Shown in pieces: positions 1,481 through 28,718 of a stretch of 28,718 nt of DNA (position 1 is its first letter; each line of letters opens with the position of its first letter). Source of the stretch: a virus; IMG/VR virus record IMGVR_UViG_3300027749_000394, positions 1-28,718 of that record, one strand, 5' to 3'. Made by a program: the position numbers and the translations under genes. Under the pieces are notes generated by a model. It was not told where the DNA came from. It saw only the letters and a list, made by a program, of their open reading frames with translations, and made no database searches.

Positions 1481-2533
1481 ATGGCACTAGTATTAGCAGA
1501 CAGAGTTCGAGAAGCAAGTACTTCTATAGGTACCGGAGCACTTGTACTTTCAGGAGCAATAAGCGGATATCAGTCTTTTTCAGCAGCTATTGGTAACACT
1601 AACACAACGTACTATGGGGTTACTAACTCAGGCACAGCTGAGTGGGAAGTTGGTTTAGGTACAATCAGTGCGGGCCTTTTAACTAGAACTACTATATTTG
1701 CTTCTAGTAATGGGGGTGCAGCTGTTGTATTTACCACAGGCACTAAAGATGTATTTTGTACATATCCTGCAAGTAGAGCTATTAACTTAGATGCCTCTAG
1801 CAATGCTGTTGGTTTAGGAACACCCGCTGCGTTTGTTGCAACTAATGTGACTGGATTACCCTTAACTACTGGTGTTACTGGAACTTTGCCCGTTGCTAAC
1901 GGGGGTACAGGCGCAATAACAATACCACTTAATAATGTTATTTTAGGCAACGGAACATCTGCTCCTCAAGCTGTAGCACCCGGTACTACAGGTAACGTGC
2001 TTACATCAAATGGTACAACATGGCAGTCTACTGCAGGGGCAACCCCAGCAAACCCAACAGCTACAATAACTGGCGCTGCGATCAATGGTACTGCTACTAC
2101 TTTTATGCGGTCAGACGCAGTACCTGCTTTTGCACTAACTATTGCACAACTTAACACAGCGGTATCTGATGCAGATGTGGCTATCTCTACATCAGCCCAA
2201 ACTTTTACTGGTGGACAGCGCGGAGCAGTAACAGCACTTACATCAAGCGCCGCAGCAATAGCTATTAACCTTGCAACTAATAACAACTTTAGTCACACCA
2301 CCTCAGAAAATACTACTTTATCAGCACCATCAAGCCCAGTGGCTGGACAGTCTGGCGTTATAACTATTACTCAAGGGGCAACCGCTAGAACCTTAGCATA
2401 TAATACGTTTTGGAAGTTCCCTGGTGGAACAGTGCCATCATTAACTGCAACAGTGGGCGCGGTAGATGTGTTTGTTTATAATGTTGAATCGGCTACCAGA
2501 GCTACATGCCAATTAATTAAGGATGTGAGATGA
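1481..2533 (+). CDS. Tail fibre-like protein
   Basis: The first about 110 residues match a domain often found at the start of phage fibre or baseplate-attached proteins: DRVREAST...SIGTG, then GYQSFSAAI, EWEVGLG and GTKDVFCTYPA. After this come the linker motifs LPVANGGTG and TGNVLTSNGTTWQST, which are hallmark repeats of trimeric phage fibre shafts. The C-terminal part (about residues 250-350) is a beta-rich domain with TLSAPSSPVAGQSG and LAYNTFWKFPGG, a pattern also seen at fibre ends. The gene overlaps the next by ATGA (2530-2533), so fibre and propeller are likely made together. Role: adhesion or fibre attachment at the cell surface. The fold is clear from motifs; the receptor is unknown. 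Confidence 0.75.
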   Translation: MALVLADRVREASTSIGTGALVLSGAISGYQSFSAAIGNTNTTYYGVTNSGTAEWEVGLGTISAGLLTRTTIFASSNGGAAVVFTTGTKDVFCTYPASRAINLDASSNAVGLGTPAAFVATNVTGLPLTTGVTGTLPVANGGTGAITIPLNNVILGNGTSAPQAVAPGTTGNVLTSNGTTWQSTAGATPANPTATITGAAINGTATTFMRSDAVPAFALTIAQLNTAVSDADVAISTSAQTFTGGQRGAVTALTSSAAAIAINLATNNNFSHTTSENTTLSAPSSPVAGQSGVITITQGATARTLAYNTFWKFPGGTVPSLTATVGAVDVFVYNVESATRATCQLIKDVR

Positions 2534-3564
2534 TAGTTGGAGGAACACCTTTGTTGCTAAACGGTTCTACGGGTAGCTCTAATTGTATAGCGGTCGTACA
2601 TGATGCCACCCCATTTATTTCTGCTTATCCATGGTCAACTTCAGGTTTTGGTACTAAATTCACTAACCCAGCTACTTTGCCTGCGGGTACGGGTGCTGGT
2701 GTAGCTTTTTCACCCGCTGGCACAGAAATAGCGGCCGCACATGCTACATCACCTTATATTTCTGCTTATCCATGGTCAACTTCAGGTTTTGGTACTAAGT
2801 TTGCTGATCCTGCTACTTTGCCTGCGGGTACGAGTACTGGTGTAGCTTTTTCACCCGCTGGCACAGAAATAGCGGTCTCACATGGTGGACCACCTGACGT
2901 TTCAGCTTATCCATGGTCAACTTCAGGGTTTGGTACTAAGTTTGCTGATCCTGCTACATTACCTACGGGTACGGGTTATGACGTAGCTTTTTCACCCGCT
3001 GGCACAGAAATAGCGGTCGCACATGTTACAACACCTTATGTTACTGCTTACTCATGGTCAACTTCAGGTTTTGGTACTAAATTCACTAACCCAGCTACAT
3101 TACCTACGGGTAATGGTGGCGGCATAGCTTTTTCACCCGCGGGCACAGAAATAGCAGTCGCACACAATACATCACCTTATATTTCTGCTTATCCATGGTC
3201 AACTTCAGGTTTTGGTACTAAATTCACTAACCCAGCTACATTACCTACGGGTTTTGGTACTGAGGTTGCTTTTTCACCCGCTGGCACAGAAATAGCGGTC
3301 TCACATGGTACAACACCTTATGTTACTGCTTACCCATGGTCTAGTTCTGGCTTCGGTACTAAATTCACTAACCCAGCTACATTACCTACGGGTGTTACGG
3401 GTAATGGGGTTGCTTTTTCACCCGCTGGCACAGAAATAGCGGTCTCACATGGTACAACACCTTATGTTACTGCTTACTCATGGTCTAGTTCTGGCTTCGG
3501 CACTAAGTTTGCTGATCCTGCTACATTACCTACGGGTGCTGGTTATGGCGTAGCTTTTTCATAA
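2530..3564 (+). CDS. Seven-bladed beta-propeller protein, probable adhesin
   Basis: The 344-aa protein is almost wholly made of seven near-identical units of 47-48 aa starting at residue 30. Each runs through AYPWSTSGFGTKF, then PATLPTG, then VAFSPAGTEIAV and H. The N-terminal 29 residues include NCIAVVHDATPF, which equals the end of a unit, while the last unit stops at VAFS. The ends therefore complement each other: seven YPWS/YSWS motifs, seven VAFS or IAFS motifs and seven IAxxH motifs. This is how a closed WD40-like propeller with 'velcro' closure is built. It is ATGA-coupled to the fibre gene and followed by short fibre-region genes, so host recognition is the most likely job. Varying residues fall in loops such as GTGAG, GTSTG, GTGYD and NGGG. 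A sugar-binding or scaffold role is the alternative. Confidence 0.75.
   Translation: MIVGGTPLLLNGSTGSSNCIAVVHDATPFISAYPWSTSGFGTKFTNPATLPAGTGAGVAFSPAGTEIAAAHATSPYISAYPWSTSGFGTKFADPATLPAGTSTGVAFSPAGTEIAVSHGGPPDVSAYPWSTSGFGTKFADPATLPTGTGYDVAFSPAGTEIAVAHVTTPYVTAYSWSTSGFGTKFTNPATLPTGNGGGIAFSPAGTEIAVAHNTSPYISAYPWSTSGFGTKFTNPATLPTGFGTEVAFSPAGTEIAVSHGTTPYVTAYPWSSSGFGTKFTNPATLPTGVTGNGVAFSPAGTEIAVSHGTTPYVTAYSWSSSGFGTKFADPATLPTGAGYGVAFS
2617..3561 (+). repeat. In-frame tandem DNA repeat, 141-144 bp unit, seven copies
   Basis: Six full units and one shortened unit follow each other with no gap, with units starting at 2617, 2758 and onward. They are very alike at DNA level, including synonymous positions, for example 'tcaacttcaggttttggtac' in most units. 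Some units carry a second variant ('tctagttctggcttcggcac') in units 6 and 7, so subtypes have been copied as blocks. Variation gathers in two short stretches per unit. The stop codon follows exactly after TTTTCA, the same point at which other units go on with CCCGCT. Recent unit duplication or gene conversion is the simplest reading. Confidence 0.9.
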
Positions 3565-3580
3565 ATAGGAACTAAAAATA

Positions 3581-3886
3581 ATGATTTATACACAATTACC
3601 CCAAACATATTGCGATGATGTACTGGCAGAAGCTATCTATGGTCGCGAAGTAGAGTTTTTTCATTACGATTTTGACCGTAATAACTTTACTAAACTACTA
3701 GAAGATATGCCTAGCGGAGCATACCGAGACGATATTGAAAACCGACTGGTTGGAACTATTGAGCAAATGCATAATGTGGAGTCAATTTATAATGCTTTAA
3801 TATCTCAAATAACCAACCAAGAAGCACATGACGCGGCAGTGTTACGCACAACCGAAAAAAGGATAAACCATGTTCCTACTAAATAA
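3581..3886 (+). CDS. Hypothetical protein in the fibre region, 101 aa
   Basis: The 101-aa product is mostly helical and acidic, with REVEFFHYDFDRNNFTKLL near residue 25-45 and two longer helices after it (RLVGTIEQMHNVESIYNALI). I recall similar short proteins ahead of tail-fibre chaperone genes in aquatic phages but know no function. The end overlaps the start of the next gene by 17 bases (3870-3886), which suggests the two are translated together. A role in fibre folding or assembly is possible from position only. There are no membrane segments; the single Cys is near the N-terminus. Confidence 0.5.
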   Translation: MIYTQLPQTYCDDVLAEAIYGREVEFFHYDFDRNNFTKLLEDMPSGAYRDDIENRLVGTIEQMHNVESIYNALISQITNQEAHDAAVLRTTEKRINHVPTK

Positions 3887-4292
3887 CACTAAGGTTCACC
3901 AAGACATTCAACGCACTATTGACGATGTTCAATATCCAGCTGGCTGGTTTAGTCACGATGCTGAAGCAAGAGCTAAAGTTGGCATGATCGAAGTGCCTGA
4001 CATTATCCGACCTGATGATGATCTTTTTATATCAGTTGAAAATCCAGACGGTAGTTATACCTCAACCGCTCGGACAGATGAGGACATAGCAGGGATTAAA
4101 CTTCAAAAAGATACACAACAAGCCTTAGCAGTTCGGCAAACTCGTAACGATAAACTCAAAGATAGCGACTGGACTCAACTTATTGACAGCACAGCAGACA
4201 AGACTTTATGGGCTGCTTATCGTCAAACCTTGCGTGACATATCATCTCAAACGGGTTTTCCTTGGGACATAACATGGCCTGAGCAACCATGA
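3870..4292 (+). CDS. Phage tail (fibre) assembly chaperone-like protein
   Basis: The C-terminal half (about residues 90-140) carries the pattern known from the phage tail assembly chaperone family that follows fibre genes: a helix with RQTRNDKLKDSDWTQL, then WAAYRQTLRDI and TGFPWDITWPEQP. The N-terminal half is variable, as usual in this family, with a section PDIIRPDDDLFISVENPDG. Such proteins help fibre or adhesin subunits fold and trimerise and are usually not part of the final particle. The place just after fibre and propeller genes fits. The start lies in the end of the previous gene, and its stop overlaps the holin start by ATGA, so it links the fibre group to the lysis cassette. Confidence 0.7.
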   Translation: MFLLNNTKVHQDIQRTIDDVQYPAGWFSHDAEARAKVGMIEVPDIIRPDDDLFISVENPDGSYTSTARTDEDIAGIKLQKDTQQALAVRQTRNDKLKDSDWTQLIDSTADKTLWAAYRQTLRDISSQTGFPWDITWPEQP

Positions 4293-4456
4293 AACTAGGC
4301 ATAGACTTAAAACAAGCATCTACACAACGTGGTCTAATATGGGTGCTTACTGCTATTGTAGGCGCTGTTTTATTATATCAGGGCAAATCTATAGACCAAC
4401 TTTTATTGCTCGCTGGCGGCGTTGCTGGTGGGCTAGGATTAATGGTGAGCGACTAA
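4289..4456 (+). CDS. Putative holin, 55 aa
   Basis: A short frame with ATG at 4289 (ATGA overlap with the chaperone stop) ends at TAA 4454-4456, whose last base is the first base of the i-spanin start. The product has a basic, polar N-terminus (MKLGIDLKQASTQRG), a hydrophobic segment WVLTAIVGAVLLY, a short polar turn QGKSID, and a second hydrophobic segment LLLLAGGVAGGLGLMV. This is the layout of a two-membrane-segment holin. Its place directly before spanin and endolysin genes makes a holin by far the best guess. It would open the inner membrane at lysis time so that the cytoplasmic endolysin, which has no export signal, can reach the wall. No antiholin dual start is seen. Confidence 0.7.
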   Translation: MKLGIDLKQASTQRGLIWVLTAIVGAVLLYQGKSIDQLLLLAGGVAGGLGLMVSD

Positions 4457-4935
4457 TGACTTATATATTTGCTGCTATTGCTTTAAGTGCTTTTTTGGCT
4501 GGTTTTGGAATAGCCCACCAGATTGATAAAGCTGAGATACAAGAGATGTCTAATGGCATTGATGCCTTACATAGGGAAGCTGAAGCAACGATTGCCACAC
4601 TAACAGAGCAAGCCGATAAAGAACATGAAAAGGCGCTTAATGCTAACAAACAACTAGAGGATGCAAATGTATCGACAATCAATGCTATTAATAGTCAGCG
4701 TGATGATTTTAAGTCTAAGCGCATGTACGACACCCATAGGAAAAGTAGTAATTGCCCCCCAACAGCAGGTAGTAATACCACAAGCACTACTAGCACCGCC
4801 GAATATGCTCCCGAACTTTCAAACGAGCTTACAGAATTTCTCAAAGCAGAAGCTTACCGAGCAGACGAAATAAGTGCCTATGCTGTGTTGTGCAAGTCTT
4901 TTGTTGTTGATAATAACTGCGGAGTACCTAAATGA
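4456..4935 (+). CDS. Inner-membrane spanin (i-spanin, Rz-like)
   Basis: The start at 4456 is chosen over an upstream in-frame ATG at 4339 because it directly overlaps the holin stop (TAATG) and gives a proper N-terminal membrane anchor: MTYIFAAIALSAFLAGFGIA. The rest, about 135 residues, is periplasmic, charged and helical (residues about 22-75 with AEIQEMSNGIDALHREAEA and EQADKEHEKALNANKQLED), as expected for the coiled coil of an i-spanin. Length 159 aa is close to lambda Rz (153 aa). A second gene, the o-spanin, lies fully inside it in another frame. The pair would join inner and outer membrane and fuse them at the last step of lysis. The stop overlaps the endolysin start by ATGA. Confidence 0.8.
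   Translation: MTYIFAAIALSAFLAGFGIAHQIDKAEIQEMSNGIDALHREAEATIATLTEQADKEHEKALNANKQLEDANVSTINAINSQRDDFKSKRMYDTHRKSSNCPPTAGSNTTSTTSTAEYAPELSNELTEFLKAEAYRADEISAYAVLCKSFVVDNNCGVPK
4661..4873 (+). CDS. Outer-membrane spanin lipoprotein (o-spanin, Rz1-like), nested in the i-spanin gene
   Basis: This 70-aa frame lies wholly within the i-spanin gene in the +1 frame. The product begins with a basic N-region and hydrophobic core (MYRQSMLLIVSVMILSL), then the lipobox LSAC with Cys22, so signal peptidase II would release a mature lipoprotein of 49 residues. The mature part is Pro/Gln-rich (CTTPIG, APQQQ, IPQALLAPP, LPN), as in Rz1 proteins. Position within Rz, small size, lipobox and Pro content together make the call firm. 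A second ATG two codons in (4667) could be the real start. Position +2 after the Cys is Thr rather than Asp, which fits sorting to the outer membrane. Confidence 0.85.
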   Translation: MQMYRQSMLLIVSVMILSLSACTTPIGKVVIAPQQQVVIPQALLAPPNMLPNFQTSLQNFSKQKLTEQTK

Positions 4936-12175: not shown

Positions 12176-15100
12176 TATTTAGAACAAAGCACTTAGTAAA
12201 CACCTTTTTGTATCTTATACAGGGCCCTAAATTTTGGGGGAGCAGTCCTCCTAGCCAATCATCAACAGTAACACAAGCTACCATACCAGATGAATTAAAG
12301 CCGTATATTAAATCCTATATGACGGCGGCAGAAAACCAAACATACCAAAAAAACGATAAGGGGGAGATTACAGGCATCCAACCCTACAAAGCTTATGGGG
12401 GGACATACGATGCAGCAGGTAATCAAACAGCCTATGATCCTTCTAAAGGTATAGCTGACTTTAGTCCACTACAAAAACAAGCTCAACAAGAAGCAGGAGC
12501 ACTACAAGCGCCAACAGCTGCTTTTGATAGTGCTTCAAACATGGCTCAAACTGCTGGAGCGGGACAACTAGAGTCAGCTCAACTAGCAAATGCTTATGGG
12601 CAACAGGGTTCTAGTATAGGAAACCAAGCTGAATCGCGAGCTGTAAACCAAGGGGGGGACCAGATATACGCTGCGGGTCAAGCGGGTCAAGGCGCATATG
12701 ATATGGGTGCAGCAAATAATCAAAGTGCTATTTCTAATACAAATAACCAAATACAAAATGCAGGGGCTTATGGTGCCCAAGGTAGTGCGATCGGGGCAAA
12801 TGTTGTACACTCTACAGCAGCCCAAACCAACTCTCAGATAGGGCAAGCGCAACAGTTAGGGATGTATGGCATTAATGTTGGTGCACAAGGTGCAGCTAAT
12901 GCAAACGCCCAAGCTACTTCTCAGATAGGGCAAGCCGGGGGGTATGGAGCACAAGGTAGTGCGATCGGGGCAAATGTTGTACACTCTACAGCAGCCCAAA
13001 CCAACTCTCAGATAGGGCAAGCCGGGGGGTATGGAGCACAAGGCTCTAATATAGGCGCTGCTGCTGCAGGGCAAGCAGGGCAAGGATATAATGCTCAAGC
13101 TAATTTTGCTCAACAGGCTACTGATCCAAATGCTGTAGGGGCATATATGTCCCCCTATATGCAAAATGTGACTAACCAACAAATTATAGCAGCTAATCGT
13201 CAGTATGATATTACAGGTTCTCAGGAAATGGCTAATGCTACTAGAGCCAACGCATTTGGGGGGAGTCGTGAAGCTCTTATGGCTGCTGAAAATGAAAGGG
13301 CTAGAAACTCGGACATAAGTGGTATTCAAGCAAAAGGGCTACAAGATGCATTTAGCAATGCTCAGTCACAACAACAGTTCGGGGCTAACTTAGGGATACA
13401 AGGACTTAATGCAGGTACTGCTGCAATGCAAACAGGTATTTCTGGAGCTAATGCGGGTATTGCTGGGGTTGGTGCACAAACAGCCGCTACTAATGCAAAT
13501 ATCTCTGCAGGTAACACAGGTATTGCTGGAGCTAATACGGGTCTTGCAGGGGTAGGTGCGCAAACAGCCGCTTCTAATATGGGTATACAAGGTACTCAGC
13601 TAGCGCAAACGGGCATTGCTCAGGGGCAAACTGCTATAAGCGAACAAACAGCCGCTACTAATGCAAATATCTCTGCAGGTAACACAGGTATTGCTGGAGC
13701 TAATACGGGTCTTGCAGGGGTAGGTGCGCAAACAGCGGCTACTAATGCGGCTACTAATGCAACTAGTACTGGTATTTCTGGGGCTAATGCAAAAATCTCT
13801 GGCGTAGGGGCACAAACAGCCGTTTCTAATATGGAACGTAGTGCTGCTGATACAGCCTTAGCAGGTAATGCTCAAGGGTTAGCAGGAGTTAACGCAGCTC
13901 AAGCAGGCTATGCAGGGGCCACCCAAGCAGCGACTACTACAGGAAATCTAGCGGCTCAAGGTCTAGCAACCCAAGTATCAACTATAGAGGCAAAACAAAA
14001 AGCAGGCCAACAGATAACAGCGCGTGAGCAAAGCATACTAGACCAAGCTGTACTGGACTACGGAAATGGACAAAACAATGCTACGAATAAAATAGGTACT
14101 ATGTCTAACCTTGTACATGGGATAAATACAACTAGTTCTGTGACCCGTGCGCCTCAAACTAGTTTAGGTAGTCAGATAGCAGGCGCTGGCGTATCATTAG
14201 GTGGAGCTTATTTGGCTGGCCGTGGGGGAAATGCTAATGGGGGCGTAATTAAAGATAATAGCTATGCTGGTGGCGGAAGTGTTGAGGGTAGTATGCGAGG
14301 CAAATTAGAGGATTTAGATAGCACTCACCTACAAGAGATAATTAAAACCAACTCTAGTCCTGAAATGACAAAATTAGCTAAGGATGTTTTGGCTAGTAAA
14401 TACGCTAAGGGGGGTATTGTTGCTTTTGCTGGGGAGGACGGCAGTTTAGTTAACGACCCCGTCTATAATGCTAGACTTAAAAAAGAACCAACAGGTATTC
14501 AACAAGCCCAGCAAGCCCCTGTAGACCCAATGGCAAACCTACAAGCAGCTAGTAGTGCAGCGCAGAAAGAAGCTGACATACCTATAGCAGACCGTATACA
14601 ACAGCAAAAAGCCCTTGAGGATAAGTTTGTGGGTGCTGATACAGAAACTGCAGCATATCGTAAGTCTATTATGGATGAACGTGCTAATGCTCCTGATGAA
14701 GCTAGAAGACAGATGGGTATGCGTCTTATGGAATTTGGTGCTAACTGGGCATCTACTCCCGGTGCACCCCTTGTTGCGGGTATGAAAGCATTAACATCTA
14801 CTCTTCCGGGCATTATGTCTGATAGTAAAGATAATAAAAAGATGATGAAAGACTTAGATAAGTCTGAATATTTACTTAACCATGCAACGCGCCTTGAAGA
14901 ACTAGGCCAGATAAAAGAAGCTACTGCAGCAAAAGATAAAGCAAGTGAATTGTTTATGCACCACCAAGAATCTTTAGTTAAATATGGTTTAAAGAAGCAA
15001 CAACTAGAGCAAGAAGCGACCATAGCTCAAGAAAGAAATGCTTCTTCTGAAAGGCAACAAGCTATGAGTAGTGGGTCGCACTTAGCTAGTGCTCAGATAG

Positions 15101-15360: not shown

Positions 15361-18300
15361 TGGCCCTACAGGATGATTATTTAAATACTATTGAGCAGCT
15401 AGAGAGTGGTGGTGTACAAGGACTTACGTCATCTAGGGGGGCTGTTGGTAAGATGCAAACTATGTCTGCTACTAGGGGTAACCCGGGGTATGGGGTTAAA
15501 CCTGCTATGGATGATAGTTTAGATGAGGCGGATAGGGTAGGTAGAGATTATGCCCTAGCTATGCTTGAACAATATAAAGACCCTGCGCTTGCCTTAGCTG
15601 CATATAATGCAGGGCCGGGAGCAGTTAATAAACATGGGGGTATTCCTCCTTATGCCGAAACTCAAAACTATGTCCGTAAAGGTATGGCTATGTTAGGTGG
15701 TGAAGGTGGAGTTACTAACCCCAATGAAACTGAAGAAGATTTAGCTAAAGCTAAAGAAGAAAGATATCAAGCTTGGTCTGCTGAGCAAGATGCAAAAGAG
15801 GAGCGATACAAAGCTTGGTCTGCCGAACAAGATAAACTAGATGCTGCTAAGAAAGCTCAAGAAGTTCCTGAAGAATTACCCACCAGATCAGTAGGAGCGT
15901 TTGCTAAAGATGTTGGCCTGTCATTAGCTAAGGGTGTTATAGGCGCTGAACAAGGGCTAGTCGGGTTAGCTGATATTCCTACTGGGGGGCATGTTGGCAA
16001 ATATTTACAGGAGCAGGGGTTTGACTTTGAAAAGAATCAGAAGCTGCTAAGTGAACAATACTCACCTCAACAAAAAGCTGAGAATAAAGCGTTAGAAGAT
16101 GCTCATGGCTTTTCAGATATTATAAGTGCAGGTATTCATAACCCTAGTGCTGTTGGTGCAATGCTTAGTGAATCTATACCCTCTATGTTTGCTGGAGGAA
16201 TACTAGGTAAAGTTGCTAAAGTTGCTAAGGGGGTAAGTGCTGCTGGTGCTGCAGGTATAGGTGAAGGTCTTATTGCTGCTGGGGGTGCTGAAGAGAATAT
16301 ACGTAATCAATCTGAAGATGGTTTAGTCTCTGGTAAAGGTACACTTGCCGCTATTGGTACAGGTATTGGTACAGGTCTATTAGGTGCTGCAGGGAGTAAA
16401 TTAACTACTAGACTTGGAGGTACTGATATTGATACCGCTATGGTTGGTGGCGCTAGAAGAGAACTCACCCCTCCAGTTACCACTACTACAGCCGCTGGAA
16501 CTAGAACAATAGAAGAGTTAGCTCCTAGTAAATTTAGGCAGGTTATGGTATCTGCACTAGGTGAAGGCGTGTTTGAAGAAATGCCTCAATCTGCACAAGA
16601 ACAGATATGGCAGAACTATGCTACAGATAAACCGCTGTTAGAGGGTGTCCCAGAGGCTGCAACTAAAGGCGCTTTATTAGGTTCTGTTATGGGTGGAGGT
16701 GTAGGTGCGGTATCAGGAGGACCTGCTAGAGTTAATACAATACCACCTCCAGCAACAACAGCAACAGGTGAAGAAACTTCTAGAGAAGAGCAGCCCCCAC
16801 TAACACCTCAAGCAGAAGCAAACAAAAAAAGAAATGATCTTAAAAGGGCTGGAATAGATATTAACCATCCTATGCACGAAAATATGATGCAACTAGATTT
16901 AAGCACTCCTGAAGGTATAGATGCAGCTGAAGCTTTTGTGCAAGGTAATAGTGAGAAGTTAGGTGGTATTAAAGATGCTGCTTGGGAAAAAATTATAGCT
17001 GATGCAAAAGAAAAAGCTGGCGTAGTAGAAGAAGTAAAAGCACCAGTAGAAGAAGTAAAAGCACCAGTAGTAGAAGAAGTAAAAGCACCAGTAGAAGAAG
17101 TAAAAGCACCAGTAGTAGAAGAAGTAAAAGCACCAGTAGTAGAAGAAGTAAAAGCACCAGTAGTAGAAGAAGTAAAGGCACCAGTAGAAGAAGTAAAAGC
17201 ACCAGTAGTAGAAGAAGTAAAAGCACCAGTAGTAGAAGAAGTAAAAGCACCAGTAGTAGAAGAAGTAAAGGCACCAGTAGTAGAACAAGCACAAGAACAA
17301 GCACGGGCTGCACCACTACCTACCCCTGAAACACTGTTAGAAGGGTTTAAAACGTCTCGCCCAACTAATTTTAGTACTAATACACAAGTTAAAAACGCCT
17401 TATCTAAACAAGGTGTGCCTGAAAAGAAGAATACACTAGAGTTACAACAACAAATACGTGCTGCTCATAATGCATATGTGCAGTCGAGTAAAGAAACGCC
17501 AGTAGTAGTTCCACAAGTAACCCCACAAGTAACCCCACAAGTAACCCCACAAGCTACTACACCTGAACCTACACAGATAGATGAGGCTAAAGTAACAGCT
17601 TATGACAACGCACTAGAACGCGCAAGTGTGCTAGCAGCGGGAGGTAGTAAGGGGGCTGTTAAGCCTTTTATGGAAGATTTACTCGCTAAAGGTCTAATAA
17701 ACCTAGAGCAAATAAAAGCGTACGCAGGTAAACCTCTTGCAGAACTTATGCAAGCGATCAACACAGACTTACAAACAGGTAGGGAGACTACTACAACTAC
17801 TCCAGTAGCATCTACATATACACCACATACAGAGTTTGGCGCTAAGAAAACTAAAGCTGCCCCTATAAAAGAGAAAGACTTAACTGGGGTTGAGAGAAGA
17901 CAGCAAGCAGCAGATGTATTACGTGCAAATGTAGAAGCTAAGAAAGCTGAAATCGAAAGACTTGCTGATGAGAAGCGGGCTGTTGCAACAGAAATACGTA
18001 GGTTTAATAGAGAGCAAGCACAAAATAAACCCACTACAACAGATAAGCCTGTACCTACCATTGTAGATTTAAACGCTAAGGTAACAGCCGCCCGTAAACT
18101 TGATGCCGATATCACTGCCGAATTAAAAGGTGTGAGAGATAGCCACCCAGAAGATATTATATCAGACCAAGGTGAACAAGACGCTAGGGTACATGAACTA
18201 CTTGCTGAAAAAGAAGCACAGTCACTTTTAAAGAAAACTAAAGAGTTAGCTACAGCTCAAGCTAAAGAGAATGCTGCTAGGAAGACAGAAGAGAAAGCTG

Positions 18301-21300
18301 CAGCTAAAGTAGAGGCAGACCGTATAGCAACAGAACATGCAGCAGCAGAGCAAGTAGCTAAAGAGAAAAGAGAAGTAGCTAAAGAGAAAAGAGAAGTAGC
18401 TAAAGAGAAAAGAAAAGTAGCGGCTAAGAAGATGGCTGAAGCTAAAGAAACTGAAGCTAAAGAAACTGAAGCTAAAGAAACTGAAGCTAAAGAAACTGAA
18501 GCTAAAGAAACTGAAGCTAAAAAAGAAATAGTTAAACCTAAAGTAGAAAACCCCCCTCAGTGGGCACAAAATGCAGCTAAGATGAATGGAGGCACAGTAG
18601 TTTTTGTTAAGGGTAATACGGCTTTAATAAAAGGGAGTAGTTTGCTTAGTGGGGCTCCTGTATTTATGGGGGCTACTGACACCTCTATAACTAGTCTTGA
18701 TATAGAACGGTATACAGGAAAGTTATTTTCAACAGAGGATAGAGCGGAATTAATAAATGCTAAAAACGAATGGTTAGCCGCAGATGCTGCTTTACATGAA
18801 GCTAACCCTAATGGGCCTTTTAAATCGGGGGAAACTACAGCTTTTTCTGACCAAGTACCTGATAGTATTCGTGGGGTAATAAACGAATGGAAAAAGATGT
18901 TAGGTATTTCAGAGCGTATTTATATTACCACTTTAGCAGATGCTGCAACTAGTGACTTTCATGGGCCTTTTGCTACTGTTGTTTCGCAGCAAGGGTATCG
19001 AACAGGGGAGAAGGGGTCTGCTAGAAGACTAGCTAATGGGGATTATGTTATAGCTTATACCCCTGCTAAACTTACTTATACTTTAGAGCTATTATCTCAT
19101 GAGATGGGGCACGTATTAGAAAAGTCTATGTATGAGTCTGCTAGCCCTGAAGTTAAAGCAGCTATTGATGAAGATTTTAAAACGTGGTTAGCATCTACTA
19201 AAGGTAAAACTGCAAGGGAGCATATAGATAGTCTCCGTGCTCGCAGCACTGCAAAAGCTACAAAGGTTTCAGAAGGTAATACGTCTGCTAAACTAGGGCC
19301 GTATTGGAGCTCAAAGTCAGAATGGTTTGCAGACCAGGTGGCTAGGTGGGCTACAACAACAGATAAGCCTTTGTCAGTAGTAGAAAAGTTTTTTCAGAGG
19401 TTAGGCCAAGCATTAAAGAGATTCTTTTTACAGAATAGAGACTTCTTACCTACGCAAACTATGCATAATTGGTTGAACTCTTTAGAAGGTACTATATTTA
19501 CTCCTGAGTCTGGTAGTACAAATGAAGATTTAGGCGCTCAGTATTCTCTATCCTCAACAGAACAAGCCTCTGTAGATGCTAACATTTTAAGAACAACAGG
19601 CACTCCTATATCTACAACTCCAAAGAAAGGGTTTTTTAAATCTCTTGAGAATAGTATAGGTAATATAGAGACTAAATATTTTAGTGCTGATGCTAAACTG
19701 GTTAATGCTTTGCGTTCTAATATAGAGAAATTAGGACTGCCCTTTAAGTCTATTCAAAAACTATTGTTGATGTCTAGCCAGTCTCAGACATTGCATGCTA
19801 CAAGCGTAGCAGCTGCAGCAGCTACAGAAGGCGGGATAACTAAAAACACTACTACTAATATGTGGGAGTCAGTAGACAGCGCACATAAGATGCCTAGTGT
19901 GCGTCTTATGTTAGAAGATATTGCTACAGCTAAAGGAGAAACTTTTAAGACTATCAATAAAATCTTTGGGGATATTATGGTAGCTGCTCGTATAAATGAG
20001 CTATCTAAAAAGGCTGATCGTATTAGAGCGCAATATAAAGCAATGCCTAAGTTAACTGCAGCTGATAAGAAAGCTAGAGCATATTTCTTACACAATAATA
20101 AACACCATGTGATAACAGCTAACGGCTTAAACCGTTTTATGAATAAGGCTGAAGTTGCAACTCACTTAGTAGTACTAGCTTCTAACCCTGCATATAAAGC
20201 GCCGCTAGATGAATGGCAAGCTGTTCGTAAAGATGTAGTTAAATTCTTAGTAGACTCTGGACGCTATTCACAAGAACAAGCTGATGCTTATATGGATGCT
20301 GTAGCTTATGTTCCATTCCAACGTGTTATGGAAAGTGGTAATGTAGATGCTGATGTTGCTTATGTACGTGCGGCAGGTAAACGAGGGGGTATGGGCGGTC
20401 TATCGTCAGGTCAGATAGAGTATAGGCTGAAGGGTCAATCTACTAGAGAAGTGGATGACATCGTATCTAACATGGAGAAGTGGGTAGTTAATAGTTATGT
20501 AAAAGGTATTAAGGCTGATAAAAGTAGGGAGCTTGTAGACTTAGCAGATAGCTATTTACCTCCAGACTCTATTACTGAACTAAAGCAAGGAGAGCCTAAA
20601 GATGGTGCTGTAACTTGTTATAGAGATGGTGTTAAAGAGTATTGGCGGTTTAAAGACCCTATGATGAGTTTTGCATTTAACTCTGTTAATCCTATAGCAC
20701 TACCTACTTTAAAGCTAGGTGCAAAAGCTGCAAACTTATTACGTAATGCTATCGTACTTAACCCACTATTTACTGCATCTCAGTTACCTCAAGATACGTT
20801 TGCAGCTATGTATACTTCTGGAGTTAAGCACCCTTGGATGTTGCCGCATGAAGTAATGCTTCAGTTTATAGGTACACTAAAAGGTACAACTAAAGAACAC
20901 ACAGCTCTTAAATCTATTGGAGCAGCAGGCCAAAAAGACTTTGCTGAAATGTATGCTAGAAGTATTCATGATATTGCTTATGGTACACACTCTGATGGTA
21001 AAGGCCCGTGGGCTGCAGTTATACGCCAACTAAACCATATAGCTATGGCAGGGGATAATGCTGTAAGACAGGCAGTATATGCAAGGACGCTAAAAGAACT
21101 AAAAGAAAATCCTAACGCTAAAGCTATAGCTCAAGAACGTGCATTTGAACTTATTAACTTTCGTAGAAAGGGTGCTAGTGCTGGCTTAGATACACTACGT
21201 CAAATTACTCCTTTCTTAGGTGCATATATGCAGGCACAACGTGTAGCATACAATACTATATCTGGTAGAGGTATTGCACCTTCAGAGAGAAAGGCAGCTA

Positions 21301-26696: not shown

Positions 26697-27246
26697 GTAA
26701 ATTACCAAATATAATTGGGGCTATTTTTTGCAGTTGTCGTTCAATTTCAAGAGCTACTTCACGTACTTCTGTCTGTGCTGCCTTAGATGATCTAAGTTTT
26801 ATAAAGTCTTTCCAAGCTTGGTAGTTACCTGTCGCATATAACTCAGTCTCTTGCCCTTGTGGCAGTATGTATCTTGCATCTTGTTTTGATACGCCGTGTG
26901 CTCTTAGTTCTTGATATATAAACTTAGACCGTTTTAAATAGTTGTCAATTAAATCCCCATATGGTTCTAATGATTCAGGAATAAATAACTCTGCATCAAC
27001 CTCATCACAATACCTAGAGCTTCTTACAAGATAATCTAAATGTTTACTACGTGTTAGTTGAGCCAAACACACTCTGCTAATCCCCTCGATACGGAACACA
27101 GCAGAGCCAAATCTAAGGACAGATAAGTGCCCCACCCCAATAATGTGCGCCAATCTTTTCTCATCATTTCCTTCTCTGCCGTAGCATATGCCTGCATACT
27201 TCCCTAGATTTAGGGGGTTGGTATGTTCTTCTAGTGTTACTTTCAT
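26683..27246 (-). CDS. thyX: Flavin-dependent thymidylate synthase ThyX
   Basis: ThyX makes dTMP from dUMP with FAD, NADPH and methylene-tetrahydrofolate. The 187-aa protein (usual length about 210-250) has GVGHLSVLRFGSAVFRIEGISR at the start of the fold, the signature region at 66-79, and the C-terminal set ARYILPQ (Arg125), GNYQAWKDFIKLR (Asn141, Arg152) and AQTEVREVA (Gln158). These fit ThyX. The signature RHRx7SxR reads RSKHLDYLVRSSRY here: Arg66, Ser76, Arg78 and Tyr79 are kept, but His is Ser67 and the second Arg is Lys68. The NxR motif has Gln for Arg. Activity is likely but not certain. Its start overlaps the helicase stop by ATGA. It would supply dTMP for phage DNA synthesis. Confidence 0.85.
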   Translation of the reverse strand: MKVTLEEHTNPLNLGKYAGICYGREGNDEKRLAHIIGVGHLSVLRFGSAVFRIEGISRVCLAQLTRSKHLDYLVRSSRYCDEVDAELFIPESLEPYGDLIDNYLKRSKFIYQELRAHGVSKQDARYILPQGQETELYATGNYQAWKDFIKLRSSKAAQTEVREVALEIERQLQKIAPIIFGNLLDDN

Positions 27247-28718
27247 TGCACTATCTCTTTAAATAAATCTAATAGCTTCGTTTGAGAAGCGCCTTTGTTT
27301 TCCAGTACACTTAGTACTTTCTTTTCTACTGGACTTCCTATTAAGTGCACAACATTACACCTATTAATCTGCCCTGCTCTGTGTATGCGAGCGTTAGCTT
27401 GCATGTATGTTTCTAATGATAATGTTATACCCCACCAGACGATTGTATTAGCTGCATGTAATGTAACTCCATGAGCTGCAGCTTGCGGCTGGATAACCAG
27501 TATACGGGGGTCTGGACTAATTTGGAACTGATTAAATATTTCTGCTCTTTTACTTACACTTACACCACCATGTATTACATCTACTGTATGGCCTTCAGCT
27601 AATAACGCTTTTTGTACTAGCTCAATCGTATGTCTAAACATAACAAACACAATAACTTTATGAGATGCTTCTTCTACTATAGCTAGTAGCTCACTAGTTC
27701 TGCCTTTAACATCAAACTCTATTACTTCTCCTGTATCTGAGTACACGCACCCAGCTGATAACTGCAATAACTTATTCAATGCTACCGCTGCATTAGCCGC
27801 TGATATTTCCTCCCCTCCAGCTTGCATAAGCATCTCTTTTTTTAAGAGCTTATAATATTTATCTTGCTGTACCGAAAGTGGCACATCTCTAGTTTGATAT
27901 AAGAGTTCAGGTAAATCTAAACACTCCTCTTTAGTAAACCGTATAGCAGGCTGTAGGATGCTGTGTACTATTGCTTCAGCTTCTGGTCGGTTTTTAAATA
28001 CAAATACTGATTGTCTTACCTGTACTAAATCTCTAAAAGCATTAAACGCTCTAGGTACACTTTTAGGGTTTACTATCTTAGCTAAGCCATATGCATCCAC
28101 TGGAGACTGCGCCGCAGGTGTACCTGTAAGCATCCATAACCATGTGTCTTTCTTAATTAACTTGTTTAAAACCTTCCATCTTTTTGTTGCTACGTTCTTT
28201 AAGTGTGTTGCTTCGTCTACTACTATTAAATCAAAGCCCCCTGCATCTATCTCATCTTGAACAATCTCTACACCATCGTAGTTAATAATAACAATCTCTG
28301 CAGTGCCACCAATAATAGCCGCCCTTTTATCTCGTGCACCATGTGCTATTTCTACAGACCTATGCATAACTGTTCTAAATAAATCTCTACGCCATGCGGC
28401 ATCCATAATGGATAGAGGGCAAATTACTAGCATTCGTTTAACTGCACCTATTGTCATTAGGTAATCAGCTGCCCATATAACAGAGTTGGTTTTGCCTGTG
28501 CCCATCTCGGATAAACAGAAACCCTTTTTGTTTAGTGTTAAAAACTCTGCTGTTACTCGTTGATGGTCAAACGGTTTATACATGCCTGTCCATTTATATT
28601 GAGTGCTTATAGGGGAGGGTATATCTTTAAACCCCATATTGTTTAGTATATGCATCTCACCTAAACCAAACTTAACCCACACTTCATTTTCTGCTACGTG
28701 CTTACTTCTCTCTATGAC
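27243..28718 (-). CDS. SNF2-type helicase/translocase (5' end outside the window)
   Basis: The frame is open to the window edge: twelve more codons without stop lie upstream of the GTG at 28682, so the gene probably starts beyond 28718. Numbering from that GTG, it has the superfamily 2 motifs in order: YKPFDHQRVTA (37-45), Walker A EMGTGKT (59-65), VICPLSIM, DEAT (156-159), LTGTPAAQS (from about 184), and in the second RecA domain KVIVFVMFRHTIEL, DVIHGGV and ANARIHRAGQ (motif VI). This is the SNF2/Rad54-like type common in phages, without chromatin-specific domains. It may remodel DNA-protein complexes or help replication or recombination. It is ATGA-coupled with thyX. Confidence 0.88.
   Translation of the reverse strand, partial: VIERSKHVAENEVWVKFGLGEMHILNNMGFKDIPSPISTQYKWTGMYKPFDHQRVTAEFLTLNKKGFCLSEMGTGKTNSVIWAADYLMTIGAVKRMLVICPLSIMDAAWRRDLFRTVMHRSVEIAHGARDKRAAIIGGTAEIVIINYDGVEIVQDEIDAGGFDLIVVDEATHLKNVATKRWKVLNKLIKKDTWLWMLTGTPAAQSPVDAYGLAKIVNPKSVPRAFNAFRDLVQVRQSVFVFKNRPEAEAIVHSILQPAIRFTKEECLDLPELLYQTRDVPLSVQQDKYYKLLKKEMLMQAGGEEISAANAAVALNKLLQLSAGCVYSDTGEVIEFDVKGRTSELLAIVEEASHKVIVFVMFRHTIELVQKALLAEGHTVDVIHGGVSVSKRAEIFNQFQISPDPRILVIQPQAAAHGVTLHAANTIVWWGITLSLETYMQANARIHRAGQINRCNVVHLIGSPVEKKVLSVLENKGASQTKLLDLFKEIVQ

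Follow-up and report, generated by a model that had tools for sequence, protein, structure and literature searches.

A repetitive WD40-type propeller encoded directly after a phage fibre gene is a probable separate receptor-binding tip

The gene at positions 2530-3564 of the window, by which we mean the whole stretch of 28,718 bases that was analysed (the complete record IMGVR_UViG_3300027749_000394, which may itself be a fragment), probably encodes a separate receptor-binding tip of the tail fibre; we infer both docking and receptor binding, and put the probability of this reading at roughly three in four. In the proposed mechanism, a 12-residue start peptide would dock the tip on the C-terminal domain (CTD) of the fibre, the top face of the propeller would contact a host surface molecule, at a first guess a glycan, and new specificities could arise by exchange of the whole tip at the junction, by exchange or re-amplification of blades, and by point changes at two top-face positions. 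At the level of sequence, a place at the fibre tip is supported by the fusion of propellers to the C-terminus of fibre-like ORFs in relatives, by a shared gene junction and by a downstream fibre-assembly gene. An earlier interpretation made from the letters only (the sequence-only reading), which had proposed a closed propeller of near-identical units with a receptor-binding surface diversified by unit shuffling, is partly supported overall. The features of the region are collected in Table 1.

Table 1. Coordinates of the fibre and tip region in the window.
Feature	Position	Strand	Remarks
Fibre gene	1481..2533	+	350 aa; parts (mostly the linker) share an ORF with a propeller in other phages
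Fibre CTD	2183..2530	+	~116 residues; putative docking end
Tip gene	2530..3564	+	344 aa; seven-bladed WD40-like propeller
ATGA	2530..2533	+	tip-gene start codon overlapping fibre-gene stop codon; same in 21 of 31 CTD loci
Anchor peptide	2530..2565	+	residues 1-12 (MIVGGTPLLLNG); also heads tips with unrelated sequences in other phages
Unit block 1	2587..2727	+	blade 1 strands b, c and d, followed by the next blade's strand a
Unit block 2	2728..2868	+	
Unit block 3	2869..3009	+	
Unit block 4	3010..3150	+	
Unit block 5	3151..3291	+	
Unit block 6	3292..3435	+	48 aa
Unit block 7	3436..3561	+	final strand a (VAFS) closes the ring on blade 1
Partner gene	3581..3886	+	101 aa; directly downstream of the tip
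Tail-fibre assembly chaperone gene	3870..4292	+	PF16778, E 5e-19

The seven units of 47-48 aa counted by the sequence-only reading are present, spaced at 141, 141, 141, 141, 141 and 144 nt; Tandem Repeats Finder, run on the window, reports the tip array at period 141 (6.9 copies, score 1230) and at period 423 (score 1355), all other arrays in the window scoring at most 493. The N- and C-terminal parts, which had been said to complete one another, indeed do so, because strand a is missing from blade 1, whose match begins at unit position 14, while the last residues of the protein, VAFS, are a strand a. The units are repetitive rather than near-identical as had been claimed, with a mean identity over the 21 unit pairs of 78% in amino acids and 84% in nucleotides (between-unit pS 0.28, pN 0.12). 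The lowest pair stands at 69% in amino acids, and the 78% mean lies above the level of at least 70% between blades taken from PMC5587647, whose exact procedure was not used; the propeller adds a new protein to the highly repetitive WD40 class. As to the two DNA subtypes described as mixed, they are not interspersed, since tcaacttcagg is found in units 1-5, with one changed flank base (tcaacttcaggg/t), and tctagttctgg in units 6-7; mixing is nonetheless real, and lies between blocks: columns 37-41 of the unit separate units 1, 4, 5 and 6 from units 2, 3 and 7, and columns 43-46 separate units 1 and 2 from units 3-7.

Elsewhere in the window, a small ORF with a lipobox-like LSAC (4661-4873) lies in another frame within 4339-4935, an arrangement that we take to resemble an embedded Rz/Rz1 spanin pair. 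Repeats of 84-87 nt occur at 12769-13043 and 13432-13830 in a 1080-aa ORF without Pfam match, and short in-frame repeats (VEEVKAPV, KEKREVA, ETEAK) at 17022-17289 and 18347-18521 in a probable ejection protein of 2311 aa that carries SLT and LPD38 domains. The gene of a ThyX-type thymidylate synthase (PF02511, 26683-27246, minus strand) adjoins that of an SNF2-family helicase (27243-28682, minus strand).

Given an alignment (A1) of 42 sequences including the window, AlphaFold2 predicts for the tip a closed seven-bladed propeller, as had been proposed, of the WD40 type (mean pLDDT 89.4, pTM 0.88), residues 1-15 being the sole segment with pLDDT below 50. Closure of the velcro type is formed in the model by blade 1 strands b (residues 18-24) and c (30-36), together with a lone last strand a at 338-343; the ring is made of four-stranded blades, in most of which strand d is short according to DSSP. 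Structural ranking by VIA-align includes 7bid (Z 40.0, rmsd 1.7, 284 aligned), 2ymu (Z 35.5) and the archaeal S-layer YVTN structure 1l0q (Z 35.4), and the propeller family profile, searched against the PDB, finds 2ymu at E 1e-28 and nine sequences at E 0.01, all of them WRAP/WD40 constructs. No Pfam family, PF00400 included, matches the window tip protein above its gathering score, and PF00400 reaches 22.8 and 25 bits in two relatives (cut-off 27); the fold is named WD40-type, and the tip is not a Pfam WD40 member. Its only PHROG match, phrog_19311, has unknown function. The same VIA-align ranking places 1ri6 (Z 33.1) and 6nau (Z 33.0) high, and the propeller of one relative (L049) has a sub-threshold match to Pfam Lactonase (20.6 bits, cut-off 21.7), both of which would fit an enzyme of the lactonase or 6-phosphogluconolactonase propeller type; to this we nevertheless give hardly any credence, as there is no lactonase among the nine PDB matches of the family profile, and repetitive blades with variable top-face positions sit poorly with one fixed active site.

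Relatives confirmed by tblastn comprise 330 WD40-like stretches in IMG/VR, six loci across 84,980 species genomes and six among 50,697 phage records. The WD40-like comparison set consists of the best 80 of the 330, and the set with AIFGYG repeats, a second class of tip described below, likewise comes from the best 80 of 530 stretches confirmed in one collection; both locus sets include near-duplicates and truncated contigs. Exactly seven closed units were found in 101 of 106 propeller ORFs (best 80 of 330 loci plus the window, near-duplicates included), the five exceptions having 5, 5, 10 (open), 14 (open) and 14 units. These five were dropped, and the other 101 reduced at 90% identity to 43 proteins, the window included; L054 was omitted from the 43 for the AlphaFold2 alignment. 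ORFs of 14 units in L079 and MW202701.1 (L088) probably form two seven-bladed rings per chain.

The number of units in the window's own gene was not seen to vary: L001 and L002, which are mutually identical and differ from the window by one mismatch over 4267 aligned bases, also have seven units. L007 has five units where L006 has seven, with masked flanks 99.8% identical over 8,468 bases, and its shorter array reflects either a true deletion or repeat collapse in assembly; the difference sits in one of two propeller paralogues (L006:693-1733 and L007:1787-2548). Two or three propeller genes per locus, several of them in tandem, occur in L006, L007, L015, L036, L037, L038, L040, L041, L043, L044, L046, L047, L048, L055 and L076.

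Differences between units were said to cluster in two loops, and they do cluster at two places of the unit, columns 3-4 and 19-21. Over 301 units from the 43 distinct proteins (window included), entropy is maximal at column 3 (3.33 bits), column 19 (3.49) and column 20 (2.25), and in the window alone it amounts to 2.25 at column 3 and 2.13 at column 19. In the AlphaFold2 model column 3 is the start of strand a and columns 19-20 belong to the b-c loop; on alignment to 2ymu, column 3 falls on position R1, and column 19 would be D-1 if the tetrad Asp lies six residues before the Trp. According to the available part of PMC3419727, the top face of WD40 proteins is formed by the b-c loop and the start of strand a, with contacts at R1, R1-2 and D-1. 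By strand order and this definition, and not by measured coordinates, the most variable columns would share one face, so that the varying residues should lie outside the core, as the sequence-only reading expected.

The ratio pN/pS is 0.97 at column 3, 1.11 at column 19, 0.78 at column 20 and 0.95 for the three together, compared with 0.28 over columns other than 3, 4 and 19-21; since pS is near saturation in most proteins, values near 1 are no proof of positive selection. Only two pairs of close relatives were usable, and their 20 replacements, of which three fall at column 19, two at column 20 and one at column 3, are too few to weigh. The pattern of variable hotspots is known in kind, because PMC5587647, in the part available, already reports diverse hotspot sites in highly repetitive WD40 proteins.

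Diversification by unit shuffling is supported by the mosaic blades of the window, by a lack of positional likeness between proteins and by two pairs of relatives that differ mainly in two or three of seven blades. In the window gene, the four-gamete test fails for 124 of 231 pairs among 22 biallelic informative sites, and neighbouring-site incompatibility is 0.350, versus 0.537 in permuted orders (p = 0.003). Units at the same position in different proteins are 0.703 alike, versus 0.702 for units at different positions; within proteins the value is 0.760. Synonymous divergence, on the columns chosen for this comparison, is 0.30 among the blades of the window, versus 0.65 to the nearest other protein, and within proteins it spans 0.04 (L005, with six of seven units read) to 0.74 (L056), four of the 43 proteins in this set, L005 included, having five or six anchors rather than seven. 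From the divergence of blades within and between proteins it follows that blades have been repeatedly re-amplified or homogenised, though they are old in many proteins.

Exchange was followed further in ten hand-picked pairs of relatives, in which some proteins are used twice. In seven of them the flanks are 93.9-96.4% identical (blocks aligned by blastn at at least 90%) and the propellers only 0.69-0.78 at the nucleotide level, with the reciprocal best blade at equal index in 0-2 of 7 blades; whole-propeller replacement and fast turnover could both account for these. The remaining pairs are L006/L007, with its difference in unit number, and two with 88% identity over their longest aligned blocks (propeller included): L009/L026, with differences concentrated in blades 1 and 2 (p = 8e-11), and L060/L063, with differences concentrated in blades 1, 2 and 4 (p = 5e-10). 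The part of the ORF that immediately precedes the propeller has an identity of 0.99 in L009/L026 and of 0.82 in L060/L063. Exchange between lineages, in one direction or the other, is therefore likely; a search for donors of the exchanged blades in these two pairs found none.

The tip gene follows the fibre gene at once, as had been read, with a 4-nt overlap (ATGA). The sole PHROG match of the window fibre gene has unknown function. Among the best 80 of 330 loci, parts of this gene share one ORF with a propeller at 15, many of them near-duplicates (L010, L020-L025, L029, L031, L033, L035, L060, L063, L073 and L080); the matches are mostly to the linker, residues 75-228, with only L060 matching from residue 1, and such linker-type sequence may recur widely. 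Many propeller relatives are the C-terminal domains of longer ORFs, and comparison of 11 long propeller ORFs with PHROGs gave tail fibre for six (L010, L013, L028, L029, L049, L064), minor tail protein for two (L005, L016) and no tail family for three (L021, L060, L063). Downstream, the 101-aa partner is found in 50 of 80 WD40-like loci (best 80 of 330) and in none of 84 AIFGYG-repeat loci, and in all 50 loci that have it its ORF start (stop to stop) lies -157 to +16 nt from the propeller end; its profile also matches the ORF directly after the tip in L082, L085 and MW202701, which come from genomes or named phages (E 6e-5 to 7e-4). Another partner shows the converse distribution (0/80 WD40-like, 43/84 AIFGYG loci) and is mostly close to the tip end. 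Of the 52 loci that show a fibre-assembly chaperone gene, 49 have it at a distance of 118-312 nt downstream.

Small partner and chaperone genes adjoining the tip gene would also suit a propeller scaffold that stays outside the virion, either as a fibre-folding helper in assembly or acting in the infected cell, and cellular WD40 proteins are mostly scaffolds. This is quite improbable, considering that the propeller of relatives forms the C-terminal part of long ORFs assigned to tail fibre (6/11) or minor tail protein (2/11) and that the chaperone role is already taken by the PF16778 gene.

The receptor-binding tip reading draws further on the junction itself. A scan with the fibre CTD, whose profile finds nothing below E 0.24 in the PDB, returned 31 loci, at 21 of which the next gene starts at ATGA; removal of five duplicates (L001, L002, L184, L189, L192) and addition of the window gave 17 distinct tips. 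ATGA in all 17 is no result, because they were chosen for it; the result is the 21 of 31. Their start peptide has M-I in 17/17, V at position 3 in 16/17 and G at position 5 in 16/17, the window tip opening with MIVGG. The tips themselves comprise eight WD40-like proteins, four with AIFGYG repeats, one RCC1 (PF00415, E 3e-34), one SPRY (E 2e-19) and three of no class, classes having been set by eye for tips without Pfam match, and L181 and L182 being cut by contig ends. The 102 pairs drawn from different classes are on average 62.6% identical in residues 1-12 and 8.7% identical in residues 13-24, and DNA identity at the junction runs from 0.70 before the start through 0.68 in codons 1-12 to 0.29 in the next 36 bases. 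The anchor codons vary synonymously, and it is therefore the peptide, not only the DNA, that is conserved. A degenerate DNA pattern of the junction, including the last codons of the fibre, occurs in 13 contigs, all within the CTD list.

At the ten CTD loci without ATGA, the next start lies 3-13 nt past the last sense base, with a 1-nt overlap in seven; Pfam, with which four of these ten tips were compared (L191, L197, L199, L200), assigns to them Laminin_G and/or SPRY and DUF7483 domains. Seen from the propellers (best 80 of 330 loci plus the window), none of the 106 propeller ORFs also contains the CTD. Six of them (three distinct) carry the anchor, each with a CTD gene just upstream (6/6); neither anchor nor upstream CTD gene accompanies 97 of 106, so the anchored layout is a minority. 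L061, L077 and L079 combine a weak upstream CTD match with another start peptide, the first two retaining ATGA and L079 starting at TAATG. Another recurring start (GGLIRKTPVTPAGPFQNGAAPGVWTLAEAA and on) precedes propellers in L017, L036 and L038 and may be another attachment sequence.

A profile of the four AIFGYG tips matches PHL (5mxe, E 6.5e-7) and PLL2 (6rfz, E 1.1e-6). An AlphaFold2 model of an AIFGYG tip from a 26-sequence alignment was discarded at pLDDT 39.8, so that the case for a propeller fold in this class is the sequence similarity of a repetitive protein. The lectin match of this alternative class, and the avidity that repeated weak sites would provide, agree with a general low-specificity adhesin, borne on the fibre or decorating the virion, that holds virions near glycan-rich surfaces rather than recognising a host receptor. 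Such a role is unlikely, in that per-blade diversification of the top face and replacement of tips at a fixed junction better suit changing specificity.

Beyond a receptor-binding tip in this one virus, we lean towards a wider arrangement in aquatic phages, an interchangeable-tip standard in which one fibre end and a 12-residue plug would serve many binding folds unrelated to one another, among them at least SPRY, lectin-like repeats and the WD40-like and RCC1 propellers, some with a partner gene of their own, and in which propeller tips would be further diversified by blade exchange and re-amplification, so that host recognition would evolve modularly at two levels. If this is true, a short peptide and a fibre end of ~116 residues are a natural plug and socket for wholesale change of the binding fold, a repetitive propeller offers a surface open to reshuffling one blade at a time, and the acquisition of new host recognition by phages becomes directly testable with small protein pairs. 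It would also suggest a role for part of the many little-annotated phage propellers (330 WD40-like and 530 AIFGYG stretches in one collection). A literature search over titles and the starts of abstracts, with thin coverage of subscription journals, listed no match that gives repetitive WD40-like propellers as phage fibre tips.

Compared with known systems, the tip shares with highly repetitive WD40 (HR-WD40) proteins such as WRAP (2ymu) and PkwA (5yzv), as far as described in the available parts of PMC5587647, PMC6805158 and PMC9218822, a closed WD40-type ring of similar blades, and with those of PMC5587647 blade turnover and variable hotspot positions; repetitive propellers occur, by the accessible text of PMC9218822, in all kingdoms, viruses included. 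Unlike them, the window tip is tied to a tail fibre and has blades of 47-48 aa with a b-c loop ~3 residues longer than that of 2ymu; the main texts of the three papers nowhere use the word "phage". Photorhabdus PLL/PHL lectins, seven-bladed and multivalent according to the part of PMC6943638 available, are matched by the AIFGYG tips of the same slot, whereas the window tip, also seven-bladed, has no sequence match to PLL/PHL. In a viral model library the same fold is found in "WD40/YVTN repeat-like" proteins of uncultured Caudovirales and in Orf76 of Pseudomonas phage POR1 (E 1e-42 and 1e-29). In POR1, which is cultured, the collagen-like Orf75 and the propeller Orf76 share 4 nt, ATGA, as do the fibre and tip genes of the window, but Orf76 is only 32% identical to the window tip and starts with MIGFRLL; none of the POR1 ORFs reaches the CTD profile at E 0.01, and the fibre end is similar by eye. 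POR1 could serve as a test system.

A functional parallel is offered by gp38 of T2/S16-type phages. According to the available part of PMC12892980, this separate adhesin sits on the end of the fibre protein gp37, with which its N-terminus interacts, and makes contact with the receptor through a variable part. Here too, in the window and at 21 of 31 CTD loci, a separate gene with a constant N-terminal part directly follows the fibre gene; a gp38 chimera described there kept a 113-aa N-terminal region, whereas ~12 residues are common here, and the polyglycine sandwich of gp38 differs from the propeller of the window tip, the tip fold moreover changing between phages. Homology to the gp38 family was rejected, given the propeller fold and phrog_19311 as the only PHROG match. 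In summary, by analogy the cassette would work like T2-type gp38 and is not gp38 by fold; a gp38-style separate adhesin is already known, and what is new is the detachable-tip cassette as a variant of it.
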